From positions 24,897-88,896 of the forward strand of contig NPFB01000142.1 in assembly GCA_014084085.1 (NCBI GenBank): DNA of 64,000 nucleotides, given 5' to 3'. This document shows, piece after piece, positions 5,061 to 14,916 of the stretch (position 1 is the stretch's first letter; every line of letters begins with the position of its first letter). Source of the DNA: Hondaea fermentalgiana (Eukaryota > Sar > Bigyra > Thraustochytrida > Thraustochytriidae). The notes under the pieces are model-generated. The model was not told where the DNA came from, did not search any database, and was given only the letters and a program-made list of their open reading frames with translations. The position numbers and the translations under genes were made by a program.

Positions 5061-5091
5061 CGCGCCGCGCGCTCAAAGAGCGCGCGGCGCG
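5061..5091. promoter_or_regulatory. GC-only 14-bp hairpin upstream of channel gene
   Basis: Positions 5061-5074 are perfectly complementary to 5078-5091 with a three-base AAA loop; 12 of the 14 pairs in the stem are G:C. It lies 112 bp before the channel ATG, so it is either a promoter element or, if transcribed, a very stable 5' UTR stem that could limit scanning. Confidence 0.6.
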
Positions 5092-5202: not shown

Positions 5203-8200
5203 ATGTCATGGCGCAAGTACACAGCCCGCTCATCGCGGGCCGTGGCACCATCCAGCGAAGCCAGCGATGCTGAAACACTCATTCCCCAAGAAGATGATGC
5301 AAGTGTTCCGCGACTGGCAAACCTCGGCGCCGTCTGCCTTGTAGCGTACGTCATCGCGAGCGCCGTGGTGCCGAATGTTGTCGTATTTGGCGCCGACAAT
5401 CACACGGCCATGCTACTCGCAGCATTTGTAAGTAGCTTCACTGCGGGCACTTTTGCTCTCGAAACCCTCTCAAGCGCACAATTCAGCATTCGAACCTTTG
5501 CGAAGAAAGTGAGAAACCCATCCATCCTCATTTCAAGCTTGCCCTTCGGAATCATCTTCTATGCAGCCCAGGGCAACCGCACTCTTACGACACTTGCCAT
5601 GCTCGCCTTTCTGGCGCGTTTCCATCGCGTGTTCGGAGACTACTGGGCAAATTTTCTCGTCATTGTGAAAAATACCTTTCCCACGCCGCCGCTGCAACTC
5701 ATCCGACTCGGATGGCTTGCCATTCTCGTGGCGGTCATGCAATCTCTCGCATCCTGCAGCTACTATGCTCTCGGGGAAGCTGCTCCCAACGGCACATCAT
5801 GGATTGACGGCGATGGCATCCGAGACGATAACTCGCAGCGTCAGATCGAGGACCCAAGCTCTCCGGCCATGCTGCGCATCTCCCGGTCAATCTACTTTGT
5901 GTGGCAGACACTTTTGACCGTCGGCTACGGAGGAATTGCTCCAGAGGCTCTTCAGGAGCGCGCGCTTGCCCTCGTCGTCTGTCTCGCCGGTGTCTTTCTC
6001 ATGGCGTACATGATTGCTAACATGACCTCATTTCTCGTGAACCTTGACTCGACCCCGGCCGCCCACCGCTTTACACTGGATAGCGTCGAGGCCCTCTTTG
6101 CGCAGAAATCCTTTCCCAATGCCTCGATGCGCATCGCACGCCGGGATCTTGCCCGCCAGTGGGCGCGCAGCAAAGGCCTTACTCGAGAAAAAGTTCTTGA
6201 TGACCTTCCCCCAATCTTGACGCGCAACATCATCAAGCTCAAGGCCCGTGCATTGCTCAAGACGCCAATATTTCGCCTCCCGAGATCTGCCGACCCTTGC
6301 AGGCGCGCCATCTACTATCTCGTCGACAAAATGGAGCCTTCTATTTTCGAAGTTGGACGTACACTTCGCGAGCCTTGGAACGTTATCTCCTATCGTCCAG
6401 GCGTCATGTGGTTCATGGTCGACGGGACAGCCGCCAAACGAAGCACCTCGCGTCAACCACTCGCTCAAATGCCTCCCAGCGCCCCATCAAAATCAAGATC
6501 TCTTCGTGCTCGGGCGACATCTCAGTTCCGGCAAAACACTGCAACGGAAGAAAGTGCACCAGGCACTGCGATGGCGACAATGTCAAGGCGGCGTAGCTCG
6601 TTCCGCGGCGGGCCCAACCCATTTGTTGAGCGCAGTTTCACTGCCTCCTCCGCAATGCTATGGGGAGAACCCGGCATGGATCCTCATGCCACCGACGTGC
6701 CAAATGATCTTACGCAGGAAATTGCCGAGAACTACCCGGACCTGCTCATGCCCGGAGCAACCATCGGCGCACTGCGACTATTTGACATCTTGCAAAGTCC
6801 AGCGCCACGTTATGTTGCAGTCACTCGCTGCGAGCTCGTCTTCATCACCTATGTCGACTTTCGCCGCATGGCCCTCCTCTTTCCCGAATGGGGAATGGAG
6901 TCGACCTCTCTGCGAGTTATGCGTGCCATGGAGGCGCGTCGTATCGCTAAACTTGCTCCAAAAGATGATTCGTCCGAAATACCCGAGACAGCAACAGCAA
7001 GTTCGTTTTCTTCAGCAGCTACAGAAGGTGGCCCCGTTGAGCTCGACGATCGCGTTGTCGACCAGATCGATGCAGAATGCAACTATACCTCTCTTCTCGC
7101 CTTCGACGACGACGACGACGACGACGATGACGATGACGGAGGTGAAGAACGAAAAGGAAAAGTCGAAGATGACAACAACAAGGACGGCGATGGCGATGGC
7201 GATGGCGATGGCGATGGCGATGACATGGCTAACAATCATGACGCCGCTGAAAACGCTCAAGAAAAGGGTCAAAGCGAAGTCGTCGCTTCCGAGTCAGTCA
7301 CCCAGAAGAAACAAAGCTTTTCGGACGAAGAGTCACGTCGGAAAAAAATATCAGAGGCAATGGCAAGTGCCGACATGGCCGCCAAACTAAGACTCTCGCT
7401 GAACAAGAAAAAAGAGACGACAACCGTCAAGAAAAGATCTAAAATTGCAGCCATCATGCAACAGGATTTGAATGAGAAAAGAGGAGACACCAACGGATTT
7501 GTGGCCCGATGGCTCGTTAGATTTCGATTTGCGCACGGCTCTCGAGCGGACTTTCTCTGGGATTGTGCGCTTGCAGTGATTCTTGCCTCGTATGGTATCT
7601 TTGTGCCAATACATCTCGCCACAATGATTATCGACGGAACCTCAGGTTTTTCGAACCTTACACGTCTCACCGCGCTTGGAGCCTTCTGTGGAGATACGAT
7701 CTTTCTTGCGTATTGGACCTTGCGCCCGCAGCTTTTCATCGCCGAAGTCGAGCAGCAAACGTCAAGCAACTCGCGCGGATCAGATTCGTATTCGCGGGTT
7801 CAAACGAGACGCCGCAATAGCGCTTTATCGTCTGCTTTTACGAGCGGCAAGCGCTCGTCGATCACCTCTTCCCGGGTATCACTTTCTGCAATCGCGTGGT
7901 CCTCACAGCAAGAAGCGCTCACCAACTACCACGCAAAGATGGCAAGGCGCCGCGCACAATTTATTGGGATGATGGAAATCTTTTTTGAAGTCGTGCTCAC
8001 GTTCCTTTCTCTCGTGAATCTTGGACTCATGATTTCGGGCGACGCGCAGCACAAGCGTCTTGCTGTCTTCATGAGGGTTCCCTTTCTCATTCGACTTTCT
8101 CGCATTGGTTCAATCACTGACAGCCTCGGCTCACACTTCGCAGCTTGGCGTCAACGCCAAAGACAGATGCGGGCCGTCCGCGCTGATGAGGCCGCTGCTA

Positions 8201-11200
8201 CAGGGACGTTGGCGGGAAGGTCTGCAACCACCTCAAGAATCGCTGAGGAGACGGACAATCAAAATGGCAAAGGTCCCTTCCTCTCTGCTCGCCTTGGCGT
8301 CTACTTTCTCCTCTGGGCGCATCTCATTGCGTGCTATGGAATGACCATTCTTAACGACGCCGAGGATGACAGCACATCCGAGCGCTATGTAAAGGGCATG
8401 TACTGGTCGTTGGCAACAATGACAACGACTGGTTTTGGAGACTATGAACCCACCTCAGCGCGTGACTCTCTCATCACCTCGGCGCTCGCGATTATCGGTG
8501 TCACCATCTACTCGTGCCTTGTATCTTTCATCGGAACTTTGCTCAAAGACGTTGAGTTCTCTGACAACAACATTTCCCACCAGCGGACCTGTGTTATGGC
8601 CTTTTTGCTCGACCGCAAAATCTCACCCCAACTACAAGAGAAAATCATGCTGTACTTGCATCATGTGGAGGCCAAAGACCTCCTCGTGCTCAAGCGCGTG
8701 CTCGGCGTTTCGGAAAGCAAGCAGACTGAGAAGTTCGGACACCGCGGGCAGCGCCAAGCGCTTGACAGCGAAGAAGCACTCGCATCGGCAGATTTGCTTC
8801 GCTCTGCAAGCAGCATTCGAGCGGTGTACAAAGGTTTCTGGGATCGAATTCGGGAGCAAATTGCCGGCCGCGACGTGACCTCTTGTCCGCGGTCCCACGA
8901 ATCAGATTTTCTGAGAGCCGATGTGCGTCTGCAGCTCGTCTTCGATCTTGCAGGAGCTGCCGTGCGATCATCCAAGCTCTTTGAATACGTCTCTGAAGCT
9001 TTTGTCCGGGAAGCATGTGCCCTGCTCGACTTCCGGATCATCAGTGCTGGTGATGTAGTCATCGACGATGTTAACGCCGGATGGGAGCTGTTTTTTCTTG
9101 CGAACGGCAGCATCGAGGTGCGCGATCGAAGCGACATCAAGCTAAGCAACATTGGCGAAGGTCAAAGTTTTGGCGAGCAAAACTTTGCGGAGATTAGTCA
9201 GAGCGTACGTGAGCTTGACGTTGCAAACGCAAGGAATGGTGACATCTTTTCGTCTGCTGCAGGTTCACCGTCTGCCGCACTAACAGCTTCTGTAACAAAG
9301 GCTGACAAGGAAAAGACACGTTTCATCGCAACCACCGTCGCAGAGGTTTGGGTCTTGTCGGGCCGCGCTGTGCGGCACCTATCGCTAGTTTTCCCGCAAG
9401 ATGGCGAATCGATCAAAGCGGCCGAGGCAAAGCTCTTGAGCGCAGGCAAGAGCGAGTCGGTCGCCTCAAACCTTCGTCGGGGAGGAAAGCTCGCGAAAAT
9501 GGCCGGGAACGACACGATGCTTGAAGATAAGCGCAAAGCGCCTCGAGTCATCCGCCTCGACTCGCATTTCCAGGCAACATGGAAGAGATGCATGTTGTTC
9601 TCCTTGTTGTGGATCTACGTCTCTTTTCCAGTGCGCTTCGCGTTTGTCAATGAATATGAGCCCGGTCCGACAGCTCTCATCATTGATAGCTGCGTTGACA
9701 TTCTTTTAATTCTCGACGTTGTTTTACGTGTACGGTTCTTCGAACTCGAGACGGTGCAAGGGGAGCGGCTAAGTAATCCTGCCGAGTTTCGCCCCGCCTA
9801 TTTGCGTTCCCTCTTTGGCGTGACGGACATACTCAGCGCACTCCCGATCGGTCTCGTGGCGCTCATGGCCGGGGCCCCGCACAATCCGCTCTTTCGCCTG
9901 AACAAGCTGTTTCGCGGGTCACGAACCCTTGACCACTTGGCTTCAATTGGCAGTCACGTTAAAAATCAGGCGAGAAAGAGCCTGCTGACCATTGCCAAGC
10001 TCATTTTTGTCTTTATGCTCGTCGCACACTGGGCGGGCTGTCTATTTTACAGAATTGCGGCAAATTACGAAATTGAATGCAGCAACAGTACCGGAAGAAT
10101 CTCATGGGTCTGCGAGCAAAATGTTGAGGCAGACAATGACATGCTTGATGACTATGTTAATGCTCTATACTTTGCAGTGGCAACAACTACAGCCGTCGGC
10201 TTTGGAGACGTAGTGCCCGTATCTCAGGAGGAGATTCTCTACACGATTGGCATTCTCATCATTGGCGGCTTGCTCTACTCGGTGATCATTGCCTTTCTCG
10301 AGGATATCGTGGCGCAGTCAGATCTCACGTCCATTTTGTACCAAAAGAAGTCCGACCTCATTTCTGCCTACGCTTCGATGCGCGAGTTTTCACCTCAATT
10401 ACGGTCCAGTATTCGCTCCTATGTCTTTCGCTCTTGGATGCGCCAAAAGGGCGTCAACGATGACCATATTCTCAGCTACCTCAGCCGACCGCTGCGACAA
10501 CAGGTCGCTCTCGAGCTCATCGGCGAGCAGACGCTCCGAAGGACTCCCGTGCTTGGGCCCTCGCGTGTGTGGCGCTTTGTAACTCATTCCATTCGTTTTG
10601 ACCGCTTCAGGAGACAATCGATTCTCTATCATGCTGGACAAACTGGAGATCAACTTTTCTTTCTTCTCAAGGGTTCTGTGGAGGTCGTCTCGCCAGACTT
10701 GGAACGCGTCTTTTACCAGGTCGAGAGCCCGGGAGGCGTCGTTGGTATCGATGGCTTCTTGCGTGCTCGCGACGGCGGTTACCCTGCTTCAGCGAGGTGC
10801 AAGGAATCGTGCGAAGTTGCTATTCTCGACCGCAGCGCCGTGGCAAACGCCCTCGTTGACAATCCTCAACTTGTCAGTCTCTTTGAAGAGGAGCTCAGGC
10901 AGTTCGTGGCCAAGCCGAGCCAACTTGAGCACACCAAGAAGAATCTCGACAAGCGCAAGCTTACCAAGATGTTTCAAGATACGGAGCAGGACGAGAGTAC
11001 AGGTCGGAAAAGGGGATTTAATCTCAATCACTACGTCCTCATGCCTGGCCACTTCAACTACGTTCTCTTTCACGCCATTCTCTTTTATGTCATCATTGAG
11101 ATTGGCATTTTGGTACCTCTTTGGGCCATGATGTCGGCAACGGACGCCTTTGCCATGCAGGACACATCTGGAGCCTACATTGGTATAAGCTTGCAGATGG

Positions 11201-12903
11201 ATCTCTTTCTCTGGTGCTTTGTAGGGCTCAACGCCATGCTTGTATCTCAGGTCAAGAACGGCCGTGTGCTTTCCGAATGGAGGGACATTCGACGAGCCTC
11301 CTTCCGGTCATTTGGTTTTGCCATCGACCTGATTGCCACCTTGCCATTTGATCTTATTGGTCTCGCCGTGGCAGAATCTGCCGGGTCGAGCAGCCCTTTG
11401 CACGTCTACCTTCTGCTGCGTTTGCTGCGCCTCCTCTGGCTTCGACATATTCCACGATGCTGGACAATTTTTGACAATGCCATCGACGCTTCCGCTCGAA
11501 TCCAGATCACAAGTGGCTACAGGCACCTGATCAAGATTGTTGCCACGGTGCTCCTTGTGTCACATTGGCTGGCGTGCGGGTACGCACGAGTTCTCATAAG
11601 CACTCGTAGCAACTGGCCTTGCCGAACCATGAGCGAGGATTGCCAAGCGAATATTGGCCGTGCCTACATTGATTCTATCTACTTTACTTTTTACACGGTG
11701 ACAACAATTGGCTTCGGAAATGTTCCGGTCATTGGGATCGCGGAGCGCATCTTTGCAATCTTTGTCATGGTCGTGGGCTCCTTTCTTTGCGATGCAGGCA
11801 TCACATCGACACTGGTGTCAATCATTGATATCGAGGATTCCACCGCGGCTGCTGGAAATCGATACCGAGACGCAGCACTCCAGCTCATGGACCATATGCA
11901 ACTATCAAGCCGCATTACGGGCTTGGTGCGCACCTATTATGCGTACCGGGTCGAAGAGATGGCTGTGAAGGACAGCGACTGTTTTCGCGAGCTGCCCTTT
12001 TCTCTGAACAATGCTGTCAAGGAGTTTCTTGGTTTGCGCACCTTGCGCACAAACGCAGTAAAGTGCAAGAACTTGCGCGATTTGAGGGATGGCCTGCTTG
12101 TCTCGCTTTTCCGCTCGCTACGCAACGAGGTAATCATTCCCATGGAGAAGCTCTACAACTCCGGATCCCGGGTCCTCCGACTCGTTTTTGTTGCTCGCGG
12201 ACGTGTGCTCGCGTTCGCAGCTCGAGATCTCTCGAAAGAGCAGTTGCGGAAGCTCGGGTCCTCGCGCAATATCCTCCGCAAACGGATGTCCCTCCAATCG
12301 TCATTCACGCAGCGTAAACTGAAGATAGACGAGGCGAGCGCTGAGCTTTGGAACCCAGGCTTGCTCCTCCCCAGTGTTGGGTGGGGTGAAGCTTCGCCAG
12401 TGACTTTAGTCACGGGCAGCTTTTGCGACGCGTTGATCTGCGATCAGATGGTGTACGAAGAATTTATCGCTCTGCGTCCGCCGGTCGGGGGTCTTTATAG
12501 CTCTGCAAAGGCACTTTTGGAAAACAAGGAAGATGCTAAGCATTTGCGCGCATTTCTCGAAAGGCGCTTCATGGCAGAGACGGTAAACTTTATCCAGCTT
12601 GTGGATGACTTTCGCCGATCCCCGAATAACGAGGTGATGCGGGCTAAACGCGCTGCAACCATTGTGGGTCGATTCATCGTGCCTGACGCCGACGAGGCCA
12701 TCAACATCAGGCCAGAGGTCGCAAATGGCATAGTACAACAAGTAGAGATGGATCCTGCTCCAGAAGCTTTTGACGAGGCCTACGAAGCTGCCACCGCGAC
12801 ACTTGAAAGGGAGATACTTCCGCAATTCCAGACTTCGCCTGAATACGAAAAGCTACTCTCAAGCATTCATCGTCGCTCCGTTCTCGACTTTGTTACTGAA
12901 TAA
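5203..12903 (+). CDS. four-repeat CNG-type potassium channel with C-terminal RGS domain
   Basis: One uninterrupted 2566-residue ORF. It carries four cation-channel repeats, each with an S5-pore-S6 unit. The selectivity filters read GYGG (241-244), GFGD (1077-1080), GFGD (1666-1669) and GFGN (2170-2173), all K+-type. Each repeat is followed by a cyclic-nucleotide-binding-like domain (about 343-580, 1245-1400, 1765-1915, 2285-2425). The architecture matches the known pseudo-tetrameric CNGK/tetra-KCNG channels. The C-terminal 130 residues (about 2435-2560) read as an RGS domain: helix with FLERRFMAETVNF, an FI-DADEAINI stretch, FDEA, then ILPQFQTSPEYEKLL. Repeat 1 has a weak S4; S4 of repeat 4 has Arg at several positions. 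The 1-2 linker holds an acidic run (635-645) and a Gly-Asp repeat (661-674). The start is the first ATG, with A at -3. The likely site is plasma or flagellar membrane (inference). Confidence 0.88.
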   Translation: MSWRKYTARSSRAVAPSSEASDAETLIPQEDDASVPRLANLGAVCLVAYVIASAVVPNVVVFGADNHTAMLLAAFVSSFTAGTFALETLSSAQFSIRTFAKKVRNPSILISSLPFGIIFYAAQGNRTLTTLAMLAFLARFHRVFGDYWANFLVIVKNTFPTPPLQLIRLGWLAILVAVMQSLASCSYYALGEAAPNGTSWIDGDGIRDDNSQRQIEDPSSPAMLRISRSIYFVWQTLLTVGYGGIAPEALQERALALVVCLAGVFLMAYMIANMTSFLVNLDSTPAAHRFTLDSVEALFAQKSFPNASMRIARRDLARQWARSKGLTREKVLDDLPPILTRNIIKLKARALLKTPIFRLPRSADPCRRAIYYLVDKMEPSIFEVGRTLREPWNVISYRPGVMWFMVDGTAAKRSTSRQPLAQMPPSAPSKSRSLRARATSQFRQNTATEESAPGTAMATMSRRRSSFRGGPNPFVERSFTASSAMLWGEPGMDPHATDVPNDLTQEIAENYPDLLMPGATIGALRLFDILQSPAPRYVAVTRCELVFITYVDFRRMALLFPEWGMESTSLRVMRAMEARRIAKLAPKDDSSEIPETATASSFSSAATEGGPVELDDRVVDQIDAECNYTSLLAFDDDDDDDDDDDGGEERKGKVEDDNNKDGDGDGDGDGDGDDMANNHDAAENAQEKGQSEVVASESVTQKKQSFSDEESRRKKISEAMASADMAAKLRLSLNKKKETTTVKKRSKIAAIMQQDLNEKRGDTNGFVARWLVRFRFAHGSRADFLWDCALAVILASYGIFVPIHLATMIIDGTSGFSNLTRLTALGAFCGDTIFLAYWTLRPQLFIAEVEQQTSSNSRGSDSYSRVQTRRRNSALSSAFTSGKRSSITSSRVSLSAIAWSSQQEALTNYHAKMARRRAQFIGMMEIFFEVVLTFLSLVNLGLMISGDAQHKRLAVFMRVPFLIRLSRIGSITDSLGSHFAAWRQRQRQMRAVRADEAAATGTLAGRSATTSRIAEETDNQNGKGPFLSARLGVYFLLWAHLIACYGMTILNDAEDDSTSERYVKGMYWSLATMTTTGFGDYEPTSARDSLITSALAIIGVTIYSCLVSFIGTLLKDVEFSDNNISHQRTCVMAFLLDRKISPQLQEKIMLYLHHVEAKDLLVLKRVLGVSESKQTEKFGHRGQRQALDSEEALASADLLRSASSIRAVYKGFWDRIREQIAGRDVTSCPRSHESDFLRADVRLQLVFDLAGAAVRSSKLFEYVSEAFVREACALLDFRIISAGDVVIDDVNAGWELFFLANGSIEVRDRSDIKLSNIGEGQSFGEQNFAEISQSVRELDVANARNGDIFSSAAGSPSAALTASVTKADKEKTRFIATTVAEVWVLSGRAVRHLSLVFPQDGESIKAAEAKLLSAGKSESVASNLRRGGKLAKMAGNDTMLEDKRKAPRVIRLDSHFQATWKRCMLFSLLWIYVSFPVRFAFVNEYEPGPTALIIDSCVDILLILDVVLRVRFFELETVQGERLSNPAEFRPAYLRSLFGVTDILSALPIGLVALMAGAPHNPLFRLNKLFRGSRTLDHLASIGSHVKNQARKSLLTIAKLIFVFMLVAHWAGCLFYRIAANYEIECSNSTGRISWVCEQNVEADNDMLDDYVNALYFAVATTTAVGFGDVVPVSQEEILYTIGILIIGGLLYSVIIAFLEDIVAQSDLTSILYQKKSDLISAYASMREFSPQLRSSIRSYVFRSWMRQKGVNDDHILSYLSRPLRQQVALELIGEQTLRRTPVLGPSRVWRFVTHSIRFDRFRRQSILYHAGQTGDQLFFLLKGSVEVVSPDLERVFYQVESPGGVVGIDGFLRARDGGYPASARCKESCEVAILDRSAVANALVDNPQLVSLFEEELRQFVAKPSQLEHTKKNLDKRKLTKMFQDTEQDESTGRKRGFNLNHYVLMPGHFNYVLFHAILFYVIIEIGILVPLWAMMSATDAFAMQDTSGAYIGISLQMDLFLWCFVGLNAMLVSQVKNGRVLSEWRDIRRASFRSFGFAIDLIATLPFDLIGLAVAESAGSSSPLHVYLLLRLLRLLWLRHIPRCWTIFDNAIDASARIQITSGYRHLIKIVATVLLVSHWLACGYARVLISTRSNWPCRTMSEDCQANIGRAYIDSIYFTFYTVTTIGFGNVPVIGIAERIFAIFVMVVGSFLCDAGITSTLVSIIDIEDSTAAAGNRYRDAALQLMDHMQLSSRITGLVRTYYAYRVEEMAVKDSDCFRELPFSLNNAVKEFLGLRTLRTNAVKCKNLRDLRDGLLVSLFRSLRNEVIIPMEKLYNSGSRVLRLVFVARGRVLAFAARDLSKEQLRKLGSSRNILRKRMSLQSSFTQRKLKIDEASAELWNPGLLLPSVGWGEASPVTLVTGSFCDALICDQMVYEEFIALRPPVGGLYSSAKALLENKEDAKHLRAFLERRFMAETVNFIQLVDDFRRSPNNEVMRAKRAATIVGRFIVPDADEAINIRPEVANGIVQQVEMDPAPEAFDEAYEAATATLEREILPQFQTSPEYEKLLSSIHRRSVLDFVTE

Positions 12904-12944: not shown

Positions 12945-12999
12945 TCTTCTTCTTCTTCTTCTTCTTCTTCTTCTTCTTCTTCTTCTTCTTCTTCTTCTT
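12945..12999. repeat. (CTT)n trinucleotide tract
   Basis: About eighteen TTC/CTT units, 40 bp after the channel stop codon, in the 177-bp gap between the convergent channel and esterase genes. Probably in the 3' UTR of one or both. Confidence 0.95.
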
Positions 13000-13080: not shown

Positions 13081-14916
13081 TCAATTGACCTCATAGCCAA
13101 TTTTGTCAAACATATCGCAAACAACCTCACGAAAGTCGTATTGAGGGTGCGAGGACACTTGCATCGTGAGCATTCCCTGACGTGAGACGTTGAACTTTGG
13201 GAAAAAGAGAGCCTCCGGGGAGTCCGATTGACGCGGCAACTTTCGTGGCGAATTTGGGTTTCCTGTGCGCGCAAAGTTGGTCCAAACAGTCTGCATTTGC
13301 GAACTCAGAATCAGCTCTGCAGGAGTCGGCCCCGGGGCTGGTTGGTGACTTTCGTTCCGCGCAAGGTACATGGTATTAAAGAGCATGGCAAGGTCACACC
13401 CATGACAGATCTCGTGCTCACACCCGGGCGAAAGACCATCCTGCATAAAGTGGTTGAATGACGGGAGATGGTTGTAATAGTAGACAAAGACTGGATTCGT
13501 CTGGGCAGCGTGCTTGGCAAAGGCGCGAATCGAGCACGTAAATATGTAGTCTGTGGCGATTTGCGTAAGGAATTTGCGCACGTCGCCCTCGCGAGTCATT
13601 GCCTGGTCAGGTGGCCCGTATTGATGAAAGACGCGATGTGCATCAAGCGGGCCGAAAATAGCCTCGATGAAGAGCTCGTATTTGAGCTTGGGCATGGGGT
13701 CGGGCGACACGTCCCAAATATAAGCGACGGACTCGTTTGCGACGGAACCAATTAACATGGGAACGGAGGCAAGCTTGCCGCGAGCAGCCGCCTCCATGGG
13801 CGAGAAGGGAAGCTCGGTGCCATCGACAACAGGGGTCCAGGGCATGAACTTGTGCAACATCATTCCGGGAAATGTGGGGAAAGCGGTTTTCTCTTGGACA
13901 GTGAGAATTGTCTCCGTGGTGAGATTCCGGAGGCATGCTTCCTCGCGAACCTCATCGATGTGGCCGCATCCCACGGCGTTGACAAAGCGTTTGCTGAGTT
14001 GCTCTGACTTTGCTGTTGTTTCTGTGGGCAGGGCAATTGGATCAGAAATCGCAGCAGCGCGCTGGAAAAAGGGCCAACTCCGAGGGCTTGCCAAGTGTGC
14101 AGCCACGGAAAATGCGCCTGCGCTCTGGCCAAAAATCGTGACAAGCTGGGGATCGCCGCCAAAGGCAGCAATGTTGGTCTGGACCCATTGCATGGCAAGC
14201 CTCTGGTCTTGCAGCTGAAAGTTTCCTTGAATTCCGCCACGCTTCGTGTAGAGTCCTCCAAGGACGCCGAGCCGGTAGTTGAGCGTCACGACGACTGCGC
14301 TCTGCTCGTGAGACCATCGTGATCCGTGATACAGGTTCACGCCACCCGAGCCAGCAACATAGTTTCCGCCATGAAAGAAAATAAGAACGGGTAAAGCTTG
14401 TTGCGAACGAAGTGTCTTTACGCTCTGCGGCGTGAAAACGTTCACGGAGAGGCAGTCCTCGGACGTTGTCGAGGGACACGTAAGATCTGGTTGCCCGAAT
14501 GTACACGCTTGAACGCACCCAGGCCCAAATTGAGCAGCGTAAAAGGGTTCTGAAGAAAAGGCTTTGGCAGGTTCGGGAGGAGCAAACCTTCGCTGACCGA
14601 CAGGGGCGCGCGCGTACGGGATACCCTTGTACGTGCACGTAGGAAAGGTCTCGAACCAGGTGCCAACGACTTCGCCTTGGGTGGCAAGACGCGCGCGGCA
14701 GGGGTTGTGATCGGCGTCATTCACGCTGGCGTCGTCCTTTTGTAAACGATCAGAAACGAGGTCATGGTCGCTGCCCACCCAGAAGCCCGTTGCGACCTGC
14801 TCATCTCGCCAGTTCTGCTGCTCAAGGGCTGCAAGGCCCGCTCGGCCAGGGTCGCCATGGACAAGAAGCAAGCTTGCTGCGAAGGCTGTCGCAACGAGTG
14901 CTCCGTGTAAACCCAT
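13081..14916 (-). CDS. secreted type-B carboxylesterase/lipase
   Basis: A 611-residue alpha/beta hydrolase of the carboxylesterase/cholinesterase family, normal in length. The N-terminus (GALVATAFAASLLLVHG) is a signal peptide, so secretion or an endomembrane location is likely. Family landmarks in order: GIPYARAPVG near the start of the fold, EDCLSVNVF, the oxyanion-hole segment HGGNY, the nucleophile elbow GQSAG with Ser265, and the catalytic-His segment CHGCDLAMLF with His505. The acidic triad member is probably the Glu in the VANES segment, by position. Several Cys pairs fit a secreted disulfide-bonded protein. Substrate cannot be told from sequence. It converges on the channel gene and has a TATA-like GTATATAC 30 bp before its ATG. 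Confidence 0.92.
   Translation of the reverse strand: MGLHGALVATAFAASLLLVHGDPGRAGLAALEQQNWRDEQVATGFWVGSDHDLVSDRLQKDDASVNDADHNPCRARLATQGEVVGTWFETFPTCTYKGIPYARAPVGQRRFAPPEPAKAFSSEPFYAAQFGPGCVQACTFGQPDLTCPSTTSEDCLSVNVFTPQSVKTLRSQQALPVLIFFHGGNYVAGSGGVNLYHGSRWSHEQSAVVVTLNYRLGVLGGLYTKRGGIQGNFQLQDQRLAMQWVQTNIAAFGGDPQLVTIFGQSAGAFSVAAHLASPRSWPFFQRAAAISDPIALPTETTAKSEQLSKRFVNAVGCGHIDEVREEACLRNLTTETILTVQEKTAFPTFPGMMLHKFMPWTPVVDGTELPFSPMEAAARGKLASVPMLIGSVANESVAYIWDVSPDPMPKLKYELFIEAIFGPLDAHRVFHQYGPPDQAMTREGDVRKFLTQIATDYIFTCSIRAFAKHAAQTNPVFVYYYNHLPSFNHFMQDGLSPGCEHEICHGCDLAMLFNTMYLARNESHQPAPGPTPAELILSSQMQTVWTNFARTGNPNSPRKLPRQSDSPEALFFPKFNVSRQGMLTMQVSSHPQYDFREVVCDMFDKIGYEVN

Follow-up and report, generated by a model that had tools for sequence, protein, structure and literature searches.

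The stretch of Hondaea fermentalgiana DNA analysed here (64,000 nucleotides, called the window) encodes what is almost certainly a four-repeat channel of the cyclic nucleotide-binding domain (CNBD) superfamily, bearing K+ filters and an RGS domain of its own at the C-terminus. The open reading frame begins with ATG, codes for 2566 amino acids and contains no internal stop (Table 1). Pfam matches in its product comprise four Ion_trans, four Ion_trans_2, two cNMP_binding and one RGS. The four Ion_trans matches, together with four pore stretches, indicate four six-transmembrane (6TM) repeats per chain, counted as domains and not as single helices. An earlier note on this DNA had placed four K+ filters in a single frame at residues 241, 1077, 1666 and 2170, and all four were found at exactly those residues, one in each repeat. 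The S4 segment of repeat 1, judged by eye, is almost without charge.

Table 1. Features of the channel gene in the window; positions are window positions and residues are those of the predicted protein.
Feature	Residues	Position	Strand	Basis
Four-repeat K+ channel with C-terminal RGS domain		5203..12903	+	single ORF; end-to-end conservation in P0002
Repeat 1, transmembrane part	~41-282 (our limits)	5323..6048	+	Ion_trans and Ion_trans_2; pore stretch 177-296
Filter 1, TVGYG	239-243 (G241)	5917..5931	+	sequence, pore stretch
Repeat 1, C-linker and degenerate CNBD-like region with insert	~283-600 (our limits)	6049..7002	+	Pfam, hhalign
Acidic linker, little conserved	601-746 (our limits)	7003..7440	+	comparison with P0002
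Filter 2, TTGFG	1075-1079 (G1077)	8425..8439	+	sequence, pore stretch
Repeat 2, C-linker and CNBD broken by insert	1119-1412 (our limits)	8557..9438	+	Pfam, hhalign
Filter 3, AVGFG	1664-1668 (G1666)	10192..10206	+	sequence, pore stretch
Repeat 3, CNBD	1801-1884	10603..10854	+	51.7 bits, the only one over the Pfam cut-off when cut out
Filter 4, TIGFG	2168-2172 (G2170)	11704..11718	+	sequence, pore stretch
Repeat 4, C-linker and strongly degenerate CNBD-like region	2213-2429 (our limits)	11839..12489	+	adjoins RGS domain
RGS domain	2436-2551	12508..12855	+	Pfam, AlphaFold pLDDT, Foldseek, P0002 alignment
C-terminal tail with HRRSVLDF	2552-2566	12856..12900	+	10/15 identical in P0002

The RGS match (PF00615) has an E-value of 3e-14 and 53.8 bits against the curated cut-off of 23.9, and it covers positions 3-117 of the 117-position profile. 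The C-terminal 147-residue piece searched alone against the RGS family scored 60.2 bits. Among PDB sequences, the last 165 residues matched RGS5 best (7e-8), together with RGS1, RGS7 and RGS16 (range 7e-8 to 1e-6). The block of about 125 RGS-like residues described earlier is therefore present, although its extent has to be corrected to about 116 residues followed by a 15-residue tail. The motif HRRSVLDF within this tail (window 12868-12891) is identical in the orthologue P0002.

A structure was predicted with AlphaFold for residues 1930-2566 from an alignment of only 4 sequences. The mean pLDDT was 44.6 and the channel part was poor; with 461 of the 637 residues below 50, the placement of the RGS domain on the gating ring cannot be read reliably from this model. 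In the RGS part, 10-residue blocks reached pLDDT values of 72-86, the first block having 66. Foldseek returned 207 PDB matches up to E 10, and we inspected the best 50 of these. All 37 with E 0.001 or better were RGS proteins or their complexes, headed in order by RGS8, RGS1, RGS2 and RGS16, and their TM scores to the target ranged from 0.72 to 0.92, with the exception of long RGS7 and RGS9 chains (0.27-0.29). For RGS1, RGS4, RGS8 and RGS16 the range was 0.83-0.92 (RGS8 0.84, RGS16 0.91, RGS4 chain 1agr_H 0.92). A few channel chains (HCN1, SKOR) came next, at E 0.005-0.007. The C-terminus is thus predicted to adopt the RGS helical-bundle fold.

The whole window protein was searched against 5.8 billion proteins, with candidates restricted in length and in shared words. 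Three matches were listed, P0002, P0003 and P0004, the last two being CNBD channels without RGS. P0002 (2554 aa) carries an RGS domain and is 46% identical over 100% of the query, in an alignment that spans the first to the last residue. The RGS domains of the two proteins are identical at 58 of 116 positions (50.0%) without gaps, and the transmembrane and C-linker/CNBD parts, by our region limits, at 45-59%; conservation of the RGS domain is similar to that of the channel parts. Identity rises to 77% in a short segment that separates repeats 3 and 4, and the acidic linker has 34% identity over 85 aligned residues, with 61 of its 146 residues lying against gaps. No deposited copy of the window protein was among the matches listed in two length-restricted protein searches. 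A search directed at shorter channels with RGS listed four proteins, and none of the four had RGS in its precomputed domains.

A second RGS channel is encoded in the same genome (36.0 Mb in 238 contigs; counts for large families are lower bounds). There are at least 32 RGS matches in the genome, and a by-eye comparison of 32 RGS places with the 88 Ion_trans and 43 Ion_trans_2 matches listed put two of the 32 in channel frames, one on the window's contig (C49) and one on contig C136. The C136 frame (2864 aa) with RGS also has a 28% match to residues 1416-2254 of the window protein. The open reading frame of this paralogue (L053:669-9248, 2859 aa) contains four TVGYG filters and four Ion_trans stretches, and its RGS domain lies at residues 2563-2673 (E 4.9e-7, 30.6 bits against the cut-off of 23.9). 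Another protein, P0006, is 52% identical to the paralogue, also has RGS (2.9e-8) and shows the same domain order. The genome therefore encodes RGS channels as a pair of paralogues, and for each of them an RGS-bearing orthologue or relative is found elsewhere.

The paralogue matches P0005, deposited as 'Potassium channel AKT2' of Hondaea fermentalgiana, with 100% identity over 90% of the part queried, which supports a labyrinthulomycete origin of the DNA, from Hondaea or a very close thraustochytrid relative. Compared with L053:669-9248, the P0005 model (2241 aa) has a late start and lacks in-frame stretches; most of the voltage-sensor region of repeat 3, present in P0006, is among them. For these reasons the deposited model looks mis-modelled. 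Such a model gives some support to the view that the RGS end of the window gene is a separate gene, or that the fusion comes from assembly or annotation. P0005 itself keeps the RGS domain, however, and we consider this view highly improbable. The G+C content by codon position runs along the window frame without a break, the frame is gapless between the last CNBD-like region and the RGS domain, and there is a full-length orthologue as well as a paralogue and a relative of the same architecture; on the orthologue, the paralogue pair and the unbroken codon-position make-up, this view was rejected. Because the whole architecture recurs in P0002 and, separately, in the paralogue and P0006, the fusion is not a product of chance or artefact. 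The earlier proposal of a K+ channel fused to an RGS domain is accordingly borne out by the RGS profile match, by P0002, and by the paralogue with P0006.

Other RGS matches in the genome include one located at the extreme end of a very long frame (C187:387458-387799), where no channel match is listed, and two pairs, each pair within a single frame (C163:32503-34368 and C210:267229-268062).

Not all multi-repeat channels of this group have an RGS domain. In the same genome there are two further four-repeat frames, on C158 (2564 aa, with the filter motif not found in the third repeat) and C188 (2360 aa), and a two-repeat frame on C14 (1696 aa), and no RGS was found in the C-terminal 1149-1353 residues of the three. 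Ten relatives were listed for the paralogue and two of these have RGS (P0005 and P0006). P0008 and P0009 are four-repeat CNBD K+ channels without RGS and have a C2 domain following repeat 4 (residues 2064-2153 and 2062-2148, respectively), in the place taken by RGS in the Hondaea channels. Neither RGS nor C2 was found in P0007, P0010, P0011 and P0012; the P0007 sequence breaks off inside repeat 4 and may lack its true end. P0013 and P0014 have no RGS by their listed domains only. The C-terminal modules of four-repeat K+ channels therefore differ between relatives, being RGS, C2 or none.

Each CNBD region was cut out and scanned alone against the Pfam CNBD, and only that of repeat 3 exceeded the cut-off. 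Repeat 1 gave 13.6 bits (E 0.066) to the C-terminal half of the profile, and this region aligned to the repeat 3 C-linker with an hhalign probability of 42%. Repeat 2 gave 18.4 bits (E 0.0021) over positions 4-57 of the 89-position profile, with an hhalign probability of 12% to repeat 3. In repeat 4 no Pfam CNBD was found up to E 10, and hhalign to the repeat 3 region gave a probability of 24% (P 0.0009 over 100 columns). The key residues of the phosphate-binding cassette are a Glu and an Arg, which hold the cyclic nucleotide phosphate; in an alignment to SthK, repeat 3 is without both. In CNGK, the four-repeat channel of sea urchin, nanomolar cGMP opens the pore. The paralogue cassette keeps GE and has lost the Arg. 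As the sole clear CNBD is that of repeat 3, and this one is without the cyclic nucleotide-contact residues, an input other than cyclic nucleotides is plausible. The genome has 21 cyclase-domain matches among those listed. We considered lost nucleotide contacts as a mark of RGS channels and rejected this: a loose motif scan found the cyclic nucleotide motif in four of 20 proteins (C136, C158, P0012 and P0004) and in three of 10 loci of other channel genes, the match in C136 lies in the wrong place by eye, and 13 of 16 RGS-free proteins are also without the motif.

Chains of KCNH channels have a single repeat and a PAS domain at the N-terminus, and their CNBD is without the canonical cyclic nucleotide residues. 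The best PDB sequence matches of repeat 3 are KCNH5 (9e-34) and KCNH1. The window protein is nevertheless no single-repeat PAS channel: it has four repeats and an RGS domain, and no PAS domain was present among Pfam matches up to E 1. The CNGK channels of sea urchin and zebrafish sperm and of a choanoflagellate have, as here, four 6TM-CNBD repeats per chain with GYG or GFG filters (PMC4749565, in excerpt). The likeness to CNGK proposed earlier holds for repeat number and filters; it fails for the nucleotide-binding part, since CNGK has a CNBD in each repeat (same excerpt) and the window protein has one clear CNBD out of four regions, without the usual nucleotide-contact residues. The available part of a 2020 survey (PMC7576140) assigns four-repeat CNGK to metazoans and choanoflagellates; for labyrinthulomycetes it reports no tandem channels. 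Set against the cited papers, in the parts available, the window protein means that four-repeat K+ channels exist in a stramenopile as well. The frames on C158, C188 and C14 are further multi-repeat CNBD K+ channel frames in a labyrinthulomycete, where the excerpted survey has none. The term RGS was not found in the available main text of either the CNGK paper or the survey.

A tree of 44 repeats, built only from proteins found in this analysis, placed repeat 1 (98/96), repeat 3 (99/96) and repeat 4 (98/98) in clades of their own. Members were the window protein, P0002, C136, P0006, P0007, P0008 and P0009, with P0011 joining in repeats 1 and 4; repeat 2 did not resolve and several end branches were long. 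The separate clades point to one four-repeat ancestor for these channels. The third repeats of the four RGS channels (window protein, P0002, C136 and P0006) grouped together (95/80). For a concatenated tree of ten proteins, 8% of 200 bootstrap trees had a branch with the four RGS channels alone on one side, and in a tree of 37 RGS domains the four channel domains were together in 0% of 200. Forcing the four together was not rejected in either case (AU p 0.32 for the concatenated tree and 0.40 for the RGS domains). Both trees have long branches, and they would accommodate one fusion event or two.

The C-terminus of 6TM channels is cytosolic, as established for the superfamily, so the RGS domain would sit where Gα is. 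We suggest, with a probability of about 0.4, that the channel is a Gα-docking effector with a built-in RGS. The cytosolic RGS, placed directly after the fourth C-linker/CNBD-like region, would dock active Gα-GTP; binding would move or lock the gating ring and K+ flow would change; and GTP hydrolysis, perhaps only modestly sped by the channel's RGS, would end the signal. Provided that each pore is built from one chain, every channel would have a single RGS and a single Gα site. Several findings argue for this proposal: the RGS domain is recognised by profile, sequence and fold and is kept up to the C-terminus in P0002, a second paralogue and its relative have the same domain order, and possible Gα partners are encoded in the genome.

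These partners are represented by 17 Gα matches among those listed, of which 11 exceed the cut-off. The switch II sequence DVGGQRNER[KR]KW occurs in seven of the 11; one match over the cut-off (C26:19040-20071) contains an in-frame TGA. Gα matches also occur in two clusters of three each (C26:13576-22826 and C91:596324-602895).

For the RGS side of such a contact we compared six positions, E87, N88, N128, L159, D163 and R167, which we take to be Gα contacts in RGS4 numbering. The window RGS agrees with human RGS5 at two of the six (E87 and N128), with N88, L159, D163 and R167 changed, and P0002 at three (E87, N128 and D163); position R167 is Q in both. The paralogue and P0006 each keep one of the six (R167) and have lost E87 and N128, although the E87 column of this pair is uncertain because a 3-residue insert adjoins it. 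In the other 30 RGS matches listed for the genome, all six are kept in seven, two or fewer in seven, and E87 and N128 together in 19. N128 of RGS4 is a Gα contact (PMC7572916, in excerpt). In a plant RGS the substitutions E313A and N357A lowered affinity 45- and 295-fold, with a GTPase rise short of wild-type (PMC11061236, in excerpt), and by our reading of the contact description in that excerpt E313 and N357 are likely the equivalents of E87 and N128. Since these two are kept and the other contacts are changed, the window RGS may well bind Gα, with doubtful strength as a GAP. The RGS of the paralogue appears to have drifted further.

These contacts bear on how the domain is used. The channel could be a mere membrane anchor for a GAP that switches off Gα nearby and leaves gating unaffected, and the kept E87 and N128 of the window protein and P0002 would fit this, as would 7TM-RGS proteins, in which an anchored RGS has measured GAP activity (PMC9283941, in excerpt). 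We regard this as unlikely, given that N88, L159 and R167 depart from the GAP consensus in both orthologues, and D163 in the window protein, and that by our limits only few residues lie between the CNBD-like region and the RGS domain, which would be odd for a free tether. RGS domains of the Axin or sorting-nexin type offer a comparison for roles without Gα. An RGS fold recruited in this way, for example for subunit, trafficking or lipid contacts, seems rather improbable for the window channel: the paralogue pair, with one contact of six and neither E87 nor N128, would agree with it, and the C2 domain near the same end of two RGS-free four-repeat relatives suggests a slot for targeting modules, but the two positions that probably correspond to the most important residues of the plant RGS are preserved in the window protein and P0002. 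The Gα-docking effector is favoured over both the anchor and the recruitment of another partner because of the cytosolic place of the RGS domain and the few residues that separate it from the CNBD-like region. The kept E87 and N128 in the window protein and P0002 argue for it as well; counting against it are the contacts themselves (two of six in the window protein, three in P0002, one each in the paralogue and P0006) and the finding that lost nucleotide-contact residues are not special to RGS channels. The built-in Gα feedback unit envisaged in the earlier note would thus be plausible for the window protein, with E87 and N128 kept, and is weakened by its four changed contacts and by a paralogue pair without E87 and N128.

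There are precedents for parts of this arrangement. RGS-RhoGEF proteins (in Naegleria and of the mammalian p115 type) are RGS-carrying effector candidates that meet Gα through the canonical RGS interface, and the 7TM-RGS proteins AtRGS1 and those of Naegleria and Trichomonas are, as here, membrane proteins with a C-terminal RGS (PMC9283941, in excerpt). We count both as support for the effector reading. The differences lie in the remainder of the molecule: the output of RGS-RhoGEF is a Rho exchange factor, and the 7TM-RGS proteins have a seven-transmembrane part, whereas the window protein has a K+ pore. The channel would act as a Gα effector with an off switch, like RGS-RhoGEF, its output being K+ flow through the pore.

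In animals, G proteins control GIRK and other K+ channels by way of Gβγ, and separate RGS proteins set the pace. GIRK with RGS4, RGS6 or RGS7 is a further example of RGS action on a K+ channel, with RGS4 speeding GIRK gating (PMC11187414, in excerpt). GIRK is a Gβγ-gated inward rectifier served by separate RGS proteins, while in the window channel the RGS is covalent. We found no report of an ion channel with its own RGS domain in the titles and abstract openings of mostly open-licence literature. Databases do contain the domain, through the automatic RGS annotation of P0005; as far as searched, it has not appeared in print.

In a channel equipped with an RGS of its own, G-protein timing would be built in; such a channel would offer a simple one-to-one system for how RGS shapes channel kinetics. 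Going beyond the single protein, we tentatively propose a new class of channel: a single-chain pseudo-tetramer whose ligand-blind gating ring may have been re-wired to Gα by a covalent RGS, with one Gα site per pore and a built-in timer. It would have evolved in labyrinthulomycetes and have two specialised paralogues, one that likely binds Gα and one with a changed RGS surface.

The surroundings of the gene also have some distinct features. A perfect G+C-rich inverted repeat with 14-base arms and a loop of 3 lies at window 5061-5091, about 110 bases ahead of the start codon. A 54-base TCT microsatellite (window 12945-12998) follows closely 3' of the stop codon, between two convergent genes, and the convergent neighbour of the channel, at window 13081-14916, is a carboxylesterase.
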